The notes beneath the pieces were generated by a model. That model made no database searches. It was given only the letters and a program-made list of their open reading frames with translations, and was not told the origin of the DNA. From Candidatus Pelagibacter sp. RS39 (GTDB taxonomy: Bacteria; Pseudomonadota; Alphaproteobacteria; Pelagibacterales; Pelagibacteraceae): a DNA stretch of 64,000 bases. Within the stretch, counting starts at the first letter, position 1; the number at the start of each line of letters is the position of its first letter. The stretch is from NCBI RefSeq assembly GCF_002101315.1, contig NZ_CP020777.1, positions 992,001-1,056,000 on the forward strand. The letters are read 5' to 3'. Position numbers and translations under genes: made by a program. This document shows, one piece after another, positions 1 through 4,357 of this stretch.

Positions 1-151
1 AAACGAATTTCGTAATAACCATTGCGGACGTGGGGGCAGTACCCACCACCTCCACCATTTACAACTTATGGGGGTGAACTAGATTCGACGAGTGACTAAA
101 GGCTATTCTTTCGTTCGGAATTGTTCCTCCGTAACGGGCTAATTTATAATT

Positions 152-181
152 GCTAACGAAAGTTACGCACTTGCTGCTTAA
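152..181 (+). other. tmRNA tag peptide reading frame
   Basis: The frame GCT AAC GAA AGT TAC GCA CTT GCT GCT TAA encodes ANESYALAA and then stops. The small, hydrophobic ALAA end is the usual ClpXP-type degradation signal of SsrA tags. The resume codon is taken as GCT at 152 by analogy with other tmRNAs; it was not determined experimentally. Confidence 0.85.
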
Positions 182-212
182 TTAACTTTGTTAATTAGGT
201 AAACGGGGTCTT

Positions 213-238
213 GGGGCACCTGGCAACAGAACGCCCCT
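213..238 (+). repeat. 26-bp direct repeat, left copy (putative attL, 3' end of ssrA)
   Basis: These 26 bases, beginning GGGGCACCTGG and ending CGCCCCT, recur exactly at 2515-2540. This copy is joined to the rest of ssrA. Sequence on either side of the two copies does not match, so the identity is limited to this core. An exact 3'-end duplication of an RNA gene is the standard scar of site-specific integration. Confidence 0.85.
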
Positions 239-291
239 TTCTTATCCGTGTTTAGCAAAACATATCAACGAAAATAAATAAAGAGTTGTGG

Positions 292-337
292 TTTGACCGC
301 AGTTGTACCGCAGTTCAACTTCAACTACGGGCGCATT
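292..337 (+). repeat. CCGCA-type iterated motifs, left end of the island
   Basis: Three related motifs occur at 297-304 (CCGCAGTT), 308-315 (CCGCAGTT) and 331-337 (GCGCATT). A longer imperfect match runs from 292-319 to 2434-2461 at the other end; both copies share TTTGACCGCA and then CGCAGTT. Paired, iterated short motifs inside both ends suggest integrase arm sites or another recombination-protein site. That function is inferred. Confidence 0.45.
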
Positions 338-347
338 AAAAGTTTTT

Positions 348-755
348 TCATTTAATTAAAAATTTTGAAAGATGTTTATTATAAGATTGAGGAATTTTTG
401 GCCAATTATAAATACCTTTTTCTCTCCAGCTTTTAGATTGATCACCACCCTTTCCGTTAAAGACTTTTATCAATTCATCGTGATCATAAAGGTACATATA
501 ACTACCTTGTCTAAAACATATATGAATGCCCTTATCTAAATACCTCTTATCTAAAGTTAATCTAGACTTAAGTTGAATTTTTAATAAAGTTTTGCCGTCA
601 GTATGTTGTGCTAAAAAGTCTGCTCCCTTCCAATCATCAGAAAGTTTAATAGTTTGGAAGCCATAGTCAGCAAGAACGGATGATACCTTTTGATAGTTAT
701 AGTTCTCTTTTTGTCTTGAATTCAGTTTGGAATAAATAATTTTTTTAAAATTCAT
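348..755 (-). CDS. PD-(D/E)XK nuclease-like protein, island cargo
   Basis: This 135-residue protein has the layout of a small restriction-endonuclease-fold domain: a Glu in the first helix (E17), then GAD46F on a first core strand, then IQ61LK63 on the next, giving an E...D...QxK pattern. The sequence around it (ADYGF, KLSDDW, GADFLAQH) has the look of a conserved family, but I cannot name it securely. There is no signal peptide or membrane segment, so it is probably cytoplasmic. It is the last gene of the four-gene unit, and its start overlaps the previous stop as ATGA. It may cleave or bind nucleic acid; a structural, non-catalytic role is possible. Confidence 0.75.
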   Translation of the reverse strand: MNFKKIIYSKLNSRQKENYNYQKVSSVLADYGFQTIKLSDDWKGADFLAQHTDGKTLLKIQLKSRLTLDKRYLDKGIHICFRQGSYMYLYDHDELIKVFNGKGGDQSKSWREKGIYNWPKIPQSYNKHLSKFLIK

Positions 756-1165
756 TTTAATTTAATTATTTCTTCTGGATGTTTTTTAATACGTTCTAAA
801 GACTTTTTATCTTCATAGCTTTTATATAAATTATCTATTCCAGCCTCTTTTTTAATCTTTTCAAGATTTTCTAAATAATCATCGGGACCACCGTTCATTT
901 TTAGTTTCTGCATTTCATCTCTCATCTTTTTATATTTGAGATATGTGAGTGTTGCTGTTGCCTTTTCTTTTTCATTAAGCTTTTCTCTCAAATCTTTTAT
1001 TAAATAGTCTTTCTCTTCCCCTTCTAACTTCTCACTAGCTTCAAGTGAAATTAAGGTACTTTGAATAAATGCAAAGGTTCTATCAATTATGTGCTTTTGT
1101 TTTTCAATATCCATTATTATTGAATTTAAGACTTTATGTTTGTCGTCTTTTAATTTCATATCCAA
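752..1165 (-). CDS. Hypothetical coiled-coil protein, island cargo
   Basis: This 137-residue protein is highly charged and almost entirely helical by composition, with Lys/Glu-rich heptad-like stretches at about residues 15-100. There is no signal peptide or transmembrane segment. I do not recognise a family. Its start overlaps the end of the upstream small membrane protein by 10 bp, and its stop overlaps the next start by 4 bp, so translation of the three genes is likely coupled. That makes a partner or adaptor role with the neighbouring membrane and nuclease-like proteins plausible, but this is only inference. Confidence 0.75.
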   Translation of the reverse strand: MDMKLKDDKHKVLNSIIMDIEKQKHIIDRTFAFIQSTLISLEASEKLEGEEKDYLIKDLREKLNEKEKATATLTYLKYKKMRDEMQKLKMNGGPDDYLENLEKIKKEAGIDNLYKSYEDKKSLERIKKHPEEIIKLK

Positions 1166-1476
1166 ACTAAAACTCCTAATAATAACAATAAGCCCTCCGA
1201 ATGTGCTTTATAATAAAAAATTCTTTCTAGTGGAAATTTTTTAAAAACTATTGGTGTTATTAATAACGCACAAACTAAAAACCATATTATAACAACATAC
1301 CAGGGCAAATTAGCAAAACCCCAGACAAATATTGAAATCCAAGCTGGGAACGTTAGCGTCGATAACATCTTTTTAATCCCTTTATGATCATCATACAAAG
1401 CTGGGTTATCAGATCTCATAATAACTCTTATGGTGTATCCAACGTGCATTCCAACAATCATTCCTATAAAAAACAT
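1156..1476 (-). CDS. Hypothetical small membrane protein, island cargo
   Basis: This 106-residue protein has about four hydrophobic segments: residues 1-18 (FIGMIVGMHVGYTI), 40-54, 57-75 and 90-106. The linker at about 20-38 is polar and includes a DDHKG stretch. I do not recognise the family. It is the second gene of the four-gene unit, 25 bp after the large membrane protein and overlapping the coiled-coil gene by 10 bp. It is likely an inner membrane protein. Small multi-pass proteins of this kind occur in phage-defence and immunity cassettes, but nothing in the sequence proves such a role here. Confidence 0.75.
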   Translation of the reverse strand: MFFIGMIVGMHVGYTIRVIMRSDNPALYDDHKGIKKMLSTLTFPAWISIFVWGFANLPWYVVIIWFLVCALLITPIVFKKFPLERIFYYKAHSEGLLLLLGVLVWI

Positions 1477-1501
1477 CTAAACCTCTTAACTATATTTTCA
1501 C

Positions 1502-2377
1502 TTAAGCGAAATTTTTAATTTTATTATAAAGATACTTTATACCTGTAGCGTTTGAAATAGTTTCAGCATACTTCTTAATATTTTCTTTAAACCATTCATA
1601 TATTTCACTAAAATTCATTTCTTTCATTTTTTTCTTTAAAATTATTGCCACCACTAAACCAATTATAATACCTAATAATGGACTAGAAAAAAGACTTGCG
1701 GTCATTATAAAAGATCCCATACCAACAAATCCTCTTAAAGATCCTCTCTTAAACTTATTTTTATTTTTATTTTGAGTGTATGATTTGGCTAGTGCAATGA
1801 GTGCAATAATTAAAAGAAAAGGATTAGCCCCTACTGCACCCGCTAATCCTAATGATGCACAAAGTTCAGCGAATTCTTCTTTATCTTTTTTTTTCCAGCC
1901 AAAAAATAATGCAACAACACCTATTGTTGATGATAATACTTCTAAAACATCGACGCTTTGAAAATCATATAGCCATTTTGTTTTAATAAAAAAAGTACTA
2001 CTTATTTTAGATACTAATGAATTGTAGGCTTCCATATTTTCTATATTATGCAAAGGTATACCCATCGGGGTTTGAAGATCTTTTGCCATTGAAATAAAAT
2101 AATTTTTTAATTCTTCTAAATTAGAGTCATCAGGGAGAGTTTCTCTAACCTTCTCCCACATTTTTATTGGAGAATGACTGTCATCAAATAATCTATGTAG
2201 ATAAGAGCCTATTCCAGTATCGTTATAATTTTTATCTATAGCTTTATCGTATAGAGTTGGTGTTTCATCAATTATATTAGAAACAAACTTTTCTAATTGT
2301 TTTCCATATGGTACAGCTAATAATCCAGAAAGTGCAACTGAAACTGTATTGAGTTTATTTTTAATCCAAGATTTCAC
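1502..2377 (-). CDS. Hypothetical membrane protein, first gene of the island unit
   Basis: This 291-residue protein has a soluble N-terminal half (about 1-150) followed by hydrophobic segments near 148-160, 170-200 and 215-248. The last is Gly/Ile-rich (LLGIIIGLVVAIIL) and is followed by a basic KKKMK stretch and an amphipathic C-terminal region. There is no cleavable signal peptide. I do not recognise a family. The Gly/Ala-rich hydrophobic blocks could span or perforate the inner membrane. As the first gene it probably carries the promoter, which should lie between 2378 and about 2440, next to the repeated CCGCA motifs. Confidence 0.75.
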   Translation of the reverse strand: MKSWIKNKLNTVSVALSGLLAVPYGKQLEKFVSNIIDETPTLYDKAIDKNYNDTGIGSYLHRLFDDSHSPIKMWEKVRETLPDDSNLEELKNYFISMAKDLQTPMGIPLHNIENMEAYNSLVSKISSTFFIKTKWLYDFQSVDVLEVLSSTIGVVALFFGWKKKDKEEFAELCASLGLAGAVGANPFLLIIALIALAKSYTQNKNKNKFKRGSLRGFVGMGSFIMTASLFSSPLLGIIIGLVVAIILKKKMKEMNFSEIYEWFKENIKKYAETISNATGIKYLYNKIKNFA

Positions 2378-2421
2378 AATCTAAGATTATCAAATCCTGA
2401 AGATAGACTCAATCTGCTTGG

Positions 2422-2461
2422 CCGCACTTCGATTTTGACCGCAATCTGGGCGCAGTTGAAA
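2422..2461 (+). repeat. CCGCA-type iterated motifs, right end of the island
   Basis: Related motifs occur at 2422-2429 (CCGCACTT), 2439-2446 (CCGCAATC) and 2450-2457 (GCGCAGTT). The stretch 2434-2461 matches 292-319 at about 20 of 28 positions by eye, in the same orientation. It lies between the first island gene and the right 26-bp repeat. It could be a recombinase arm site or an operator for the island genes. Confidence 0.45.
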
Positions 2462-2514
2462 GCTCTAATTAACAACTTTTGCACTAATTGTTCACGAATA
2501 ATGTTACAAAGTTC

Positions 2515-2540
2515 GGGGCACCTGGCAACAGAACGCCCCT
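2515..2540 (+). repeat. 26-bp direct repeat, right copy (putative attR)
   Basis: This is an exact copy of 213-238, the 3' end of ssrA, with no other ssrA sequence next to it. It lies 3 bp before the stop codon of the MazG-like gene. It is best read as the displaced original ssrA end after integration. It can still form the GGGGC/GCCCC hairpin but has no T-run on the plus strand. Confidence 0.85.
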
Positions 2541-2543
2541 AAA

Positions 2544-2915
2544 CTATTTAATAAATTTTCTTAAATCTGGCTTAAAATAATTAGGACCCTTCATAACTTT
2601 ACCTTTGTCATTATAAATGGGTTTACCATCTTTATCTAATTTACTCATATTTGAATTTTGAACTTCTTCAAAACAATCATCGAGATTTATACCAAATGCA
2701 TGTCCTGCACCATATGTTACATAAAGAATATCTGTTAGTGCATCAGCTACTTCGACTAAATCTTTTTTATTCATTGCTTCTATTAATTCATTGAGTTCCT
2801 CTTTAATAAGACTTACTCTTAATGCATTGATCTTTTCACTACTAAATGATGAACTCTGTTTTACGTTCTGGCCAAAAGTTTTCATGAAAACGCCTACTTT
2901 TTCAAAATTTGTCAT
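2544..2915 (-). CDS. MazG-like nucleotide pyrophosphohydrolase
   Basis: This 123-residue all-alpha NTP pyrophosphohydrolase-type protein has the family's metal-binding pattern: EELNE near residues 46-50 and EVADALTD near 66-73, giving ExxE...ExxD. The C-terminal stretch (KLDKDGKPIYNDKGK, then GPNYFKPDL) is typical of short MazG-like proteins in bacteria, phages and eukaryotes. It would hydrolyse (d)NTPs to monophosphate and pyrophosphate, perhaps for pool cleaning. It is divergent from fumC with a 53-bp gap. It lies outside the repeat-bounded island but directly abuts it, so it may be core or part of an older insertion. Confidence 0.85.
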   Translation of the reverse strand: MTNFEKVGVFMKTFGQNVKQSSSFSSEKINALRVSLIKEELNELIEAMNKKDLVEVADALTDILYVTYGAGHAFGINLDDCFEEVQNSNMSKLDKDGKPIYNDKGKVMKGPNYFKPDLRKFIK

Positions 2916-2968
2916 TTTGCTCCTGTTAGTTATCTATTTTTTAATATATAAATGTAGGTAAAGTATCA

Positions 2969-4357
2969 ATGAAATTTCGTAAAGAATTTGACAGTATTGG
3001 ATCTATAAATGTTCCTAATGATAAATATTGGGGTGCCTCTACACAAAGATCAAAAAAATATTTCGATATTGGAGATTTTTTAGTTCGACCAATTTTAATA
3101 AAATCTATAGCAATTATAAAAAAAGCAGCAGCAATAGTACATTTTAAAGAAAAACAACTTCCCAAAAAAATTTCTAATGCGATAATTGCAGCCTCTAATG
3201 AAGTCATCATTGGAAAACTTGATGAGCACTTTCCACTTAAAGTTTGGCAAACCGGATCTGGAACCCAAACTAATATGAATGTTAATGAAGTTATTGCTAA
3301 TAGAGCTATTGAAAAATTAGGAGGGAAAAAAGGTTCTAAAAAACCTGTTCATCCAAATGATCACGTAAATAAATCTCAATCCACGAATGATGTTTTTCCA
3401 ACTGCAATGCATATTGCTATAGCAATAGAAACAAAAAATAAATTATTACCCTCTCTTAAGTTGCTAGACCAAGAGCTTAAAAAAAAAATATCAAATTTTA
3501 AGAATATCATTAAAGTAGGAAGAACTCATTTACAGGATGCCACACCACTTTCTCTAGGTCAAGAATTTTCAGGTTATCAATCGCAAGTCAATGACTGTAT
3601 TTTTAGAATTAGCATGGCTTTAAAAGAAATTTATTCACTCGCGCAAGGAGGTACTGCTGTAGGAACTGGAATAAATAGTAAAAAAAATTTCGACAAAAAG
3701 GTAATTAATGAAATAAGAAAAATTACAAAACTTCCATTCAAACCTACAAAAAATAAATTTGCAGCCTTAGCAGCACATGACGAAATCGTTAACTTCTCAG
3801 GCACTTTAAATACTACTGCAGTTAGCTTAATGAAAATTGCTAATGATATTAGATTTCTTGGTTCTGGTCCAAGGGCAGGTTATGGAGAATTGATTTTACC
3901 TGCAAATGAACCAGGTTCATCAATAATGCCGGGAAAAGTTAACCCCACTCAATCAGAAGCTGTTACCATGGTATGTGTAAAAGTGATAGGCAACCATAAC
4001 GGTATAACAATGGCAGGATCACATGGTCATTTTGAGTTAAATGTATTCAAGCCTTTAATTGCGCATAACATTTTACAATCAATTAGTCTTTTATCTGACA
4101 GTATTAAAAATTTTTCACTTTATTGTGTTAGAGGATTAAAAGCTGATAAAACTAAAATTAAAGAATATTTAGACAATTCCTTAATGTTGGTAACTGCACT
4201 CGCGCCACATATTGGTTATGACAACTCAGCTAAAATTGCCAAGCTAGCACTTAAAAATAAAACGACACTAAAACATGAAGCACTAAAATCTAAACTTATA
4301 AGTGAAAAAGATTACAATAGAATTATTGACCCTAAAAAAATGATTTATCCTGCATAA
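2969..4357 (+). CDS. fumC: Fumarate hydratase class II
   Basis: This enzyme interconverts fumarate and malate in the TCA cycle, without iron. At 462 residues it has the family length. Visible blocks are [13 protein letters not shown] (about 92-104), [21 protein letters not shown] (about 182-191), and the fumarase/aspartase signature [11 protein letters not shown] near 316-326. The set with NANEVI-type substrate loops favours fumarase over aspartase or argininosuccinate lyase. The gene stands alone and its 3' end overlaps the convergent AsmA-like gene by 13 bp. Confidence 0.95.

Follow-up and report, generated by a model that had tools for sequence, protein, structure and literature searches.

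The ssrA locus of Candidatus Pelagibacter sp. RS39 raises the question of how the 3' end of an essential RNA gene came to stand twice in the same chromosome, with four small genes in between. The window, i.e., the whole stretch of DNA analysed here, is 64,000 nt long (GCF_002101315.1, NZ_CP020777.1:992,001-1,056,000, forward strand) and opens inside ssrA, a permuted (two-piece) alpha-type transfer-messenger RNA (tmRNA) gene that occupies positions 1-240 on the plus strand, with its 5' end before the window (Rfam RF01849, 177.9 bits, E 1.2e-49). The original prediction, made from the sequence alone, had read the locus as the scar of an integration, an island without an integrase of its own. The analysis leads us to the view that 239-2540 is probably an integrated, integrase-less cassette flanked by attachment (att) sites, which the integrases of rare satellites would mobilise; there is good support for its insertion at ssrA through site-specific recombination.

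The Duplicated End of ssrA

The two copies of the gene end, the left att core at 213-238 and the right att core at 2515-2540 (both on the plus strand), are identical, as had been predicted, and they are the sole 26-mer that recurs within the 64 kb in either orientation, the number of direct 26-mer pairs expected from base composition being about 5e-5. The left core is the 3'-terminal hairpin of ssrA. Its 25-mer GGGGC-ACCTGGCAACAGAAC-GCCCC folds into this hairpin (-11.8 kcal/mol, z -2.5), with which the coding piece of the tmRNA ends, and the core is also present in phage-borne tmRNAs, where the loop is kept and, judged by eye, the outer stems are altered in some. Marine phage contigs (L131-L138, L144, L145 and L148) have tmRNA genes of their own with the same 3'-end loop, and some of their outer-stem changes appear by eye to be compensating. 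The function of the RNA accounts for the conservation of the core at ssrA, so that copies elsewhere need another cause.

Empty and Filled Sites in Relatives

A duplicated gene end at both borders with ssrA itself intact, together with relatives whose site is empty and holds one copy, is what characterises integration at the 3' end of an RNA gene, and both were found. The first set of relatives comprised 69 stretches around core copies from the first draw of genomes and contained 44 ssrA loci, 38 of them with the host gene in reach; the whole set, partly selected for multiple cores, contained 61 ssrA loci, 50 with the host gene. The host gene downstream of ssrA was one of three, i.e., the MazG-like gene or a gene for a 334-aa or an 889-aa protein, the latter two of which we take to be nadA and ppdK. 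The gap was at most 350 bp, with one core, at 20 of the 38 loci (with one small gene in the gap in at least three of them, L066, L087 and L097); six loci had two cores, and 12, out of the 18 with a gap above 350 bp, had an insert without a second core at up to five mismatches.

The cleanest empty site for the window is L082 (genome G045), where a single core is present and the MazG-like gene begins 20 bp past ssrA, just the arrangement that the original prediction had proposed to look for. In the window this host neighbour, a MazG-like/PRA-PH gene, lies at 2544-2915 on the minus strand (PF01503, 6.6e-23), and when the window flanks were joined and compared with L082, 175 of 201 positions were identical. 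A second filled and empty pair, L088 and L079, agreed at 276 of 304 positions; the sequence past the core in these two was considered as an element end and rejected, as it is host flank. In L167 (G231), the nearest relative fetched (ssrA 99.5%, mazG 96% identical), a 3.1-kb cassette without ORF1-4 (the four open reading frames of the window element) was found. Presence of the four genes here in all relatives, with no empty site, had been named as a finding that would tell against integration; L082 and L167 show that they are not a constant feature of the locus. Other cargo between the same repeats turned out to be common in relatives, and the reading as an integration scar is thus supported by empty sites and by differing cargo alike.

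Arm-like Repeats and Exchangeable Cargo

Three features go beyond what had been noticed before, namely arm-like repeats in the element, copies of the ssrA end at other loci and tandem cassettes in relatives. The arm-like repeats are GC-rich pairs with an 11-bp period that lie inside both cores. The left one, GACCGCA-GTTG-TACCGCAGTT, stands 57 bp after the core at 295-315 on the plus strand, the pair itself (GACCGCA-GTTG-TACCGCA) covering 295-312, and this left end is common to L207; the right one, GACCGCA-ATCT-GGGCGCAGTT, was traced by end-pairing and motif searches to 2437-2457 on the plus strand, with the pair GACCGCA-ATCT-GGGCGCA at 2437-2454. Arms of the window type follow the form CCGCAGTT. 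Between the right arm and the right core lies a further conserved right-end sequence, TTCACGAATAATGTTACAAAGTTC (2491-2514, plus strand), close versions of which are found at the right ends of other cassettes with other cargo. A number of other cassettes have heptamers of their own at similar distances from the core, alike at both ends of a given cassette (for example TGTACGG, TGGCACA, ACTCGTC and AGTCGGC).

The likeness of the two ends was scored by a four-way match (maximum 42) in 39 cassettes of at least 290 bp, the 180-bp L163 interval and the 285-bp L192 cassette being left out. The own ends of a cassette averaged 30.6 versus 27.1 for permuted ends (standard deviation 0.40), and none of 100,000 permutations reached as high a value (p about 1e-5). 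Exact GC-rich 7-N4-7 repeats, counted over 111 stretches with registers merged, numbered 26 in the 28,002 bp at most 110 bp from cores versus 13 in the 1,831,268 bp elsewhere, a 131-fold enrichment (56 versus 18, or 203-fold, with every register counted). In 300 genomes TGGCGTC-N4-TGGCGTC occurred at six places, all six beside a core, and the window motif CCGCA-N7-CGCAGTT at four, two of them in the window, one in G185 and one in G328, all at cassette ends; the patterns read backward as controls gave two matches and one match, respectively. Their position and pairing, taken with the definition of an attP as a core flanked by arm-type sites in the available text of PMC11963761, suggest that the repeats are arm-type sites of a tyrosine integrase, the arrangement with arm-type repeats on both sides of a core being present as far as sequence can tell.

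The ends appear to be separable from the cargo. L207 (G185) matches the window at 98% over 100 bp at the left end (23 of them core) and at 95% over 56 bp at the right end (26 of them core), and this frame, in an island before the MazG-like gene, holds two different genes; its cargo is 95% and 90% identical to that of L060 (G025), the ends of which are different. The homologue of ORF2 in the SAR11 single-amplified genome AG-439-C22 sits between ends with yet another heptamer, GATCGGC. The comparison points to an exchange of cargo between end frames.

Integrases at ssrA and in the Window Genome

Integrases next to ssrA, which the original prediction had suggested as helpers to be sought, exist and are rare. 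A search by relatedness to the integrase of L154 (G201) gave matches in 21 of 399 genomes, and all 21 were inspected; at least two genomes, G201 and G282 (L169), have an integrase directly after the ssrA core; most genomes were in many contigs, and a divergent integrase at ssrA may escape such a search. The remaining L154-type integrases lie elsewhere, several beside tRNA genes, and in G245 an integrase fragment lies on the opposite side of ssrA, at a distance of about 7 kb. The L154 and L169 integrases are 52% identical and have the R, HxxR, GH and Y motifs. The L154 element measures 6,148 bp between exact cores and encodes the integrase (PF00589, 6.7e-21), small genes and a 733-aa primase-like protein (PF19263, 1.5e-7; PHROG DNA primase, 8e-25); it is followed by a further cassette whose terminal core has four mismatches. 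No conjugation gene was recognised in L154, the one complete integrase-bearing relative.

The contig of L169 ends after the integrase. Its left end, with TGGCGTC arms, matches those of the integrase-less L200 (76/84) and L201 (79/83), the latter match extending, by eye, to the likely start codon of the L169 integrase. L200 and L201 match each other over 404 of 420 bp at their right ends, and about 2.8 of the 4.0 kb of the L200 interior is without a match in L201. In these alignments, cassettes with and without an integrase share ends.

Relatives of the L154 integrase and primase were also seen in stretches with tRNA genes, in L181 with tRNA-Gly (primase 81% identical, integrase frame with two stops) and in L171 with tRNA-Cys, -Asn and -Arg genes (primase 60%), and L171, L181 and L154 may be members of one family of small SAR11 satellites that use several targets. 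In L149-L153 a related integrase lies beside tRNA-Met, and the genes next to it in L151-L153 are presumably type I restriction genes.

The window genome has a single PF00589 match, at 673,750 and about 318 kb from the cassette, and no match to the serine recombinase families PF00239 or PF07508. This tyrosine recombinase (L160:5706-6659) scores far below the cut-offs of XerC/XerD models (72 bits vs 330 for the XerD type) and may be a divergent single Xer. A PF00589 match was obtained in 38 of 49 first-draw genomes, 35 of which, the window genome among them, have a single listed match, usually in a frame of about 325 aa; among these 49 genomes none was on a core-bearing contig except in two one-contig genomes, where the two lie more than 300 kb apart.

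Core Copies, Tandem Cassettes and Other Landing Places

In the first draw, 49 of 61 genomes of the genus had the 23-base core with up to three mismatches, as against none of 40 genomes from another family in the order. The larger draw gave it in 339 of 399 genomes, including all 57 with a completeness of 90% or more and a contamination of 5% or less, and 27 of these 57 had two or more copies; the core read backward gave no match in either draw. In AG-439-C22 (L192) three tandem cassettes follow ssrA, with terminal cores of 0, 2 and 5 mismatches, the second carrying homologues of ORF2 (92% identical) and ORF1 (54%) and the third being a small-peptide cassette. A family of secreted-looking peptides of about 68 aa is found beside ssrA-end copies in L080, L042, L071, L073, L068, L086, L061, L084, L090 and L192; in L080 it forms a 317-bp cassette, and in G019 (L042) the cassette with such a peptide may belong to the ssrA island, contigs being broken there.

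A second landing place was apparent in nine of 25 stretches without ssrA (L034, L040, L044, L054, L065, L067, L071, L074 and L085), in which the core stands between genes for a 690-aa and a 261-aa protein, which we assume to be PNPase- and FabI-like, often with small genes on either side; in the window genome no core was found between these two genes. At another conserved locus away from ssrA, in G328, a 2.0-kb cassette bears the window arm motif at its right end and a relative of ORF4. Cargo elsewhere includes two type I restriction systems, the candidate defence protein PDC-S11 and GIY-YIG and homing-type nucleases, these identities coming from ten hand-chosen proteins (two without any Pfam match), from which no frequency can be derived. 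We tentatively propose, giving it somewhat less than an even chance, that all this reflects a dispersed SAR11 cassette system, in which end frames with their own arm specificity share one ssrA-derived core, swap cargo, use several landing places and depend on the integrases of rare satellites, the arm repeats serving as the address for the helper.

Genes Inside the Cassette

The interval 239-2514 (2,276 bp) is filled by four ORFs, all on the minus strand, and the prediction of four unidirectional genes without a recombinase thus held. None of the four reaches a Pfam or NCBIfam cut-off, and matches in PHROGs and PADLOC were at E 0.019 or worse. ORF1 (348-755, minus strand, 135 aa) has a possible PD-(D/E)XK nuclease fold, to which a DUF4365 match below the cut-off (E 0.022) and an AlphaFold model point (mean predicted local distance difference test score, pLDDT, 72.1), the top PDB match of the model being the Holliday junction resolvase Hjc (E 1.1e-3) with a weak template-modelling (TM) score of 0.35; its relatives are in one SAR11 single-cell genome and one other proteobacterial metagenome-assembled genome, and as a guess it might be a putative host defence protein. 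ORF2 (752-1165, minus strand, 137 aa) has a homologue with 92% identity in AG-439-C22, adjoining the ORF1 homologue there, and ORF3 (1156-1476, minus strand, 106 aa) is hydrophobic by eye and without a family match of note. ORF4 (1502-2377, minus strand, 291 aa) shares 33% identity over 180 aa with a protein in the arm-matched G328 cassette, and its structure model was unusable (pLDDT 39.5). An autonomous phage satellite, such as a phage-inducible chromosomal island (PICI) or a virion-encapsidated integrative mobilizable element (VEIME), would have its own integrase and replication or packaging genes; no such gene was recognised in 239-2514 with Pfam, PHROGs and PADLOC.

Probable Origin and Possible Mobility of the Cassette

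In the explanation that we favour, the insertion would have restored ssrA, with a second copy of the core left at the far end. Both arms (295-315 and 2437-2457) are retained in the cassette, as is the conserved right end, so that an integrase whose arm specificity matches should still be able to act on it. Small ssrA elements elsewhere in the genus would supply the integrase in trans, the shared ends suggesting such rare satellites as its source; binding of the repeats by the integrase, its action in trans and the present mobility of the cassette are inferred, as is any role of its cargo.

Several observations weigh against it. Twelve of the 18 large-gap loci lack a second core, which means that decay is common or that other processes act, and the G+C content and base composition of the cassette are similar to those of its surroundings and give no support for a recent arrival. 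Pairing of the arms shows clearly in the average and, cassette by cassette, in about one in four, most having no clear pair: a score of at least 34 was reached by 11 of 39 own pairs and by 74 of 1,482 mismatched pairs, no clear arm pair at both ends is present in L060, L088, L096 and the small-peptide cassettes, and the L154 integrase element itself scores 30. In L207 the left core has three mismatches and the right arm is without the exact motif. The window genome has one Xer-like recombinase and no ssrA-type integrase, an integrase bearing the window's own arm motif was not found in the genomes searched, and no excised circle or movement has been observed. IMG/VR, searched with the core, the right end, the integrase, the primase and ORF1, yielded no helper: the right-end motif matched no contig, and integrase, primase and ORF1 gave no confirmed relative. 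Eight IMG/VR contigs with the exact core were considered as helpers and rejected, all having a tmRNA gene match before the core; an 18-base part of the core was present in 18 contigs including these eight, and of the other ten, three were assigned to tmRNA by blastn and three are tmRNA ends by eye (L140, L142, L146 and L147 being without such an assignment), with no integrase in their ORF lists, which were read by eye and not searched with profiles.

Some of these points would suit a fossil, in which an integrase element once inserted here lost its integrase by deletion, the remnant is dead and cassettes spread or vanish by homologous recombination via ssrA and the host flanks. The large-gap loci without a second core fit such a history, as do several cassettes with degraded cores and arms and the resemblance of L201 to an integrase element whose integrase was replaced. 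A dead remnant would not, however, be expected to have identical cores with both arms and the right end retained, as the window element does, nor does it explain the nearly identical ends of G185 around different cargo, the variable order of cassettes or the cassettes held by core copies at other loci (L206); we therefore regard the fossil as unlikely. A continued mobility might instead be due to the chromosomal Xer-like recombinase (G000, 673,750), in the manner of elements that exploit dif. It is the sole tyrosine recombinase found in the window genome, it has a weak fit to XerD-type models, and most first-draw genomes with a PF00589 match likewise list one, yet the core is an ssrA end that does not look dif-like by eye, element-specific arms are unusual for Xer, and phage-type integrases stand at ssrA in two relatives, one of them with ends shared with cassettes, which makes a part for Xer very improbable.

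Least probable of all, and hardly credible to us, is an origin of the second copy apart from integration, in which a terminator or RNA hairpin was duplicated because of a function of its own. The stability of the hairpin would agree with it; at other loci a copy is often found between convergent genes, and T-rich DNA comes after many of the copies. At the window locus, on the other hand, a T-rich stretch is found only past the left copy (TTCTTATCC after the shared T), the right copy being followed by AAACTATTT; the empty sites with one copy also speak for integration, and so do the right end and arms, specific to each element, that adjoin the copies. A search for RNA families at 2300-2700 gave nothing beyond chance (three matches, E 1.2-4.5, far under the cut-offs). 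No terminator was reported in 1-3000, which counts for little, as the scan covered loops of 3-8 only and the hairpin may be unscorable. With regard to the objection raised beforehand, that the second copy might belong to a conserved RNA gene or a terminator, the former was not seen and the latter is set aside less firmly. An integrated cassette with integrase supplied by satellites remains the explanation that we prefer.

Significance and Comparison with Known Systems

SAR11 bacteria are regarded as streamlined, with few mobile elements. The cassettes would offer a route for gene turnover at the strain level without a resident integrase, some of them carrying restriction systems and candidate defence genes, and the matched end repeats make it possible to test helper and cassette pairs individually. 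No description of these cassettes in SAR11 was found in the literature searched, preprints and most subscription papers lying outside the search.

The ssrA gene of Dehalococcoides is in one piece. Its downstream islands lie, according to the available text of PMC3146451, in tandem behind the gene, and each terminates in a 20-bp repeat of the ssrA 3' end directly preceded by a conserved motif; 15 of the 31 islands have no integration module and were termed possible cis-mobilizable elements (CIMEs), the recombinases DsiB/DsiA are serine recombinases, and the vcr islands are about 12 kb. So far as that text goes, the SAR11 cassettes are alike in tandem order, ssrA-end repeats, integrase-less members and conserved sequence before the repeat, and differ in tyrosine integrases, a permuted ssrA, cassettes as small as about 0.3 kb, arm-like repeats and cores elsewhere. 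A serine module of the Dehalococcoides type was not encountered, the integrases at ssrA being of the tyrosine type and PF07508 having no match in the eight genomes tried. CIMEs in general, as the accessible part of PMC5704250 describes them, keep attL and attR, lack integration and transfer genes, occur in tandem and derive from integrative and conjugative (ICE) or integrative and mobilizable (IME) elements. The window cassette, on its sequence, has attL and attR kept and neither integration nor transfer genes; as to a descent from such elements, relatives with an integrase exist, and in L154 no conjugation gene was recognised.

Additive islands of Ca. Actinomarinales (PMC7771536) and Methylophilaceae (fGI-2, from 330 bp; PMC10872708, which also treats tycheposons) consist, in the portions of these articles at hand, of cassettes bounded by tRNA-end repeats with variable cargo. 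Their targets are tRNA genes, where ssrA is used here, and arm sites or a matching integrase are not described for them in those portions. VEIMEs and tycheposons are small integrase-primase satellites of marine bacteria. The L154 element resembles them in its integrase, small genes, primase-like protein, size of 6.1 kb and RNA-gene target, unlike the window element, which has neither integrase nor primase. Integron cassettes are small units of exchangeable genes lined up at one fixed place, with a hairpin-forming repeat. The SAR11 cassettes are alike in their tandem units and hairpin repeat and differ in their ssrA-end core and arm-like repeats; no IntI was found in the window genome, its tyrosine recombinase scoring 31 bits vs an IntI cut-off of 265. 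Analogues are thus known in the ssrA islands of Dehalococcoides, CIMEs and additive islands, to which the SAR11 cassettes would be related in kind, differing probably in their tyrosine integrases, arm-like repeats and permuted ssrA target.

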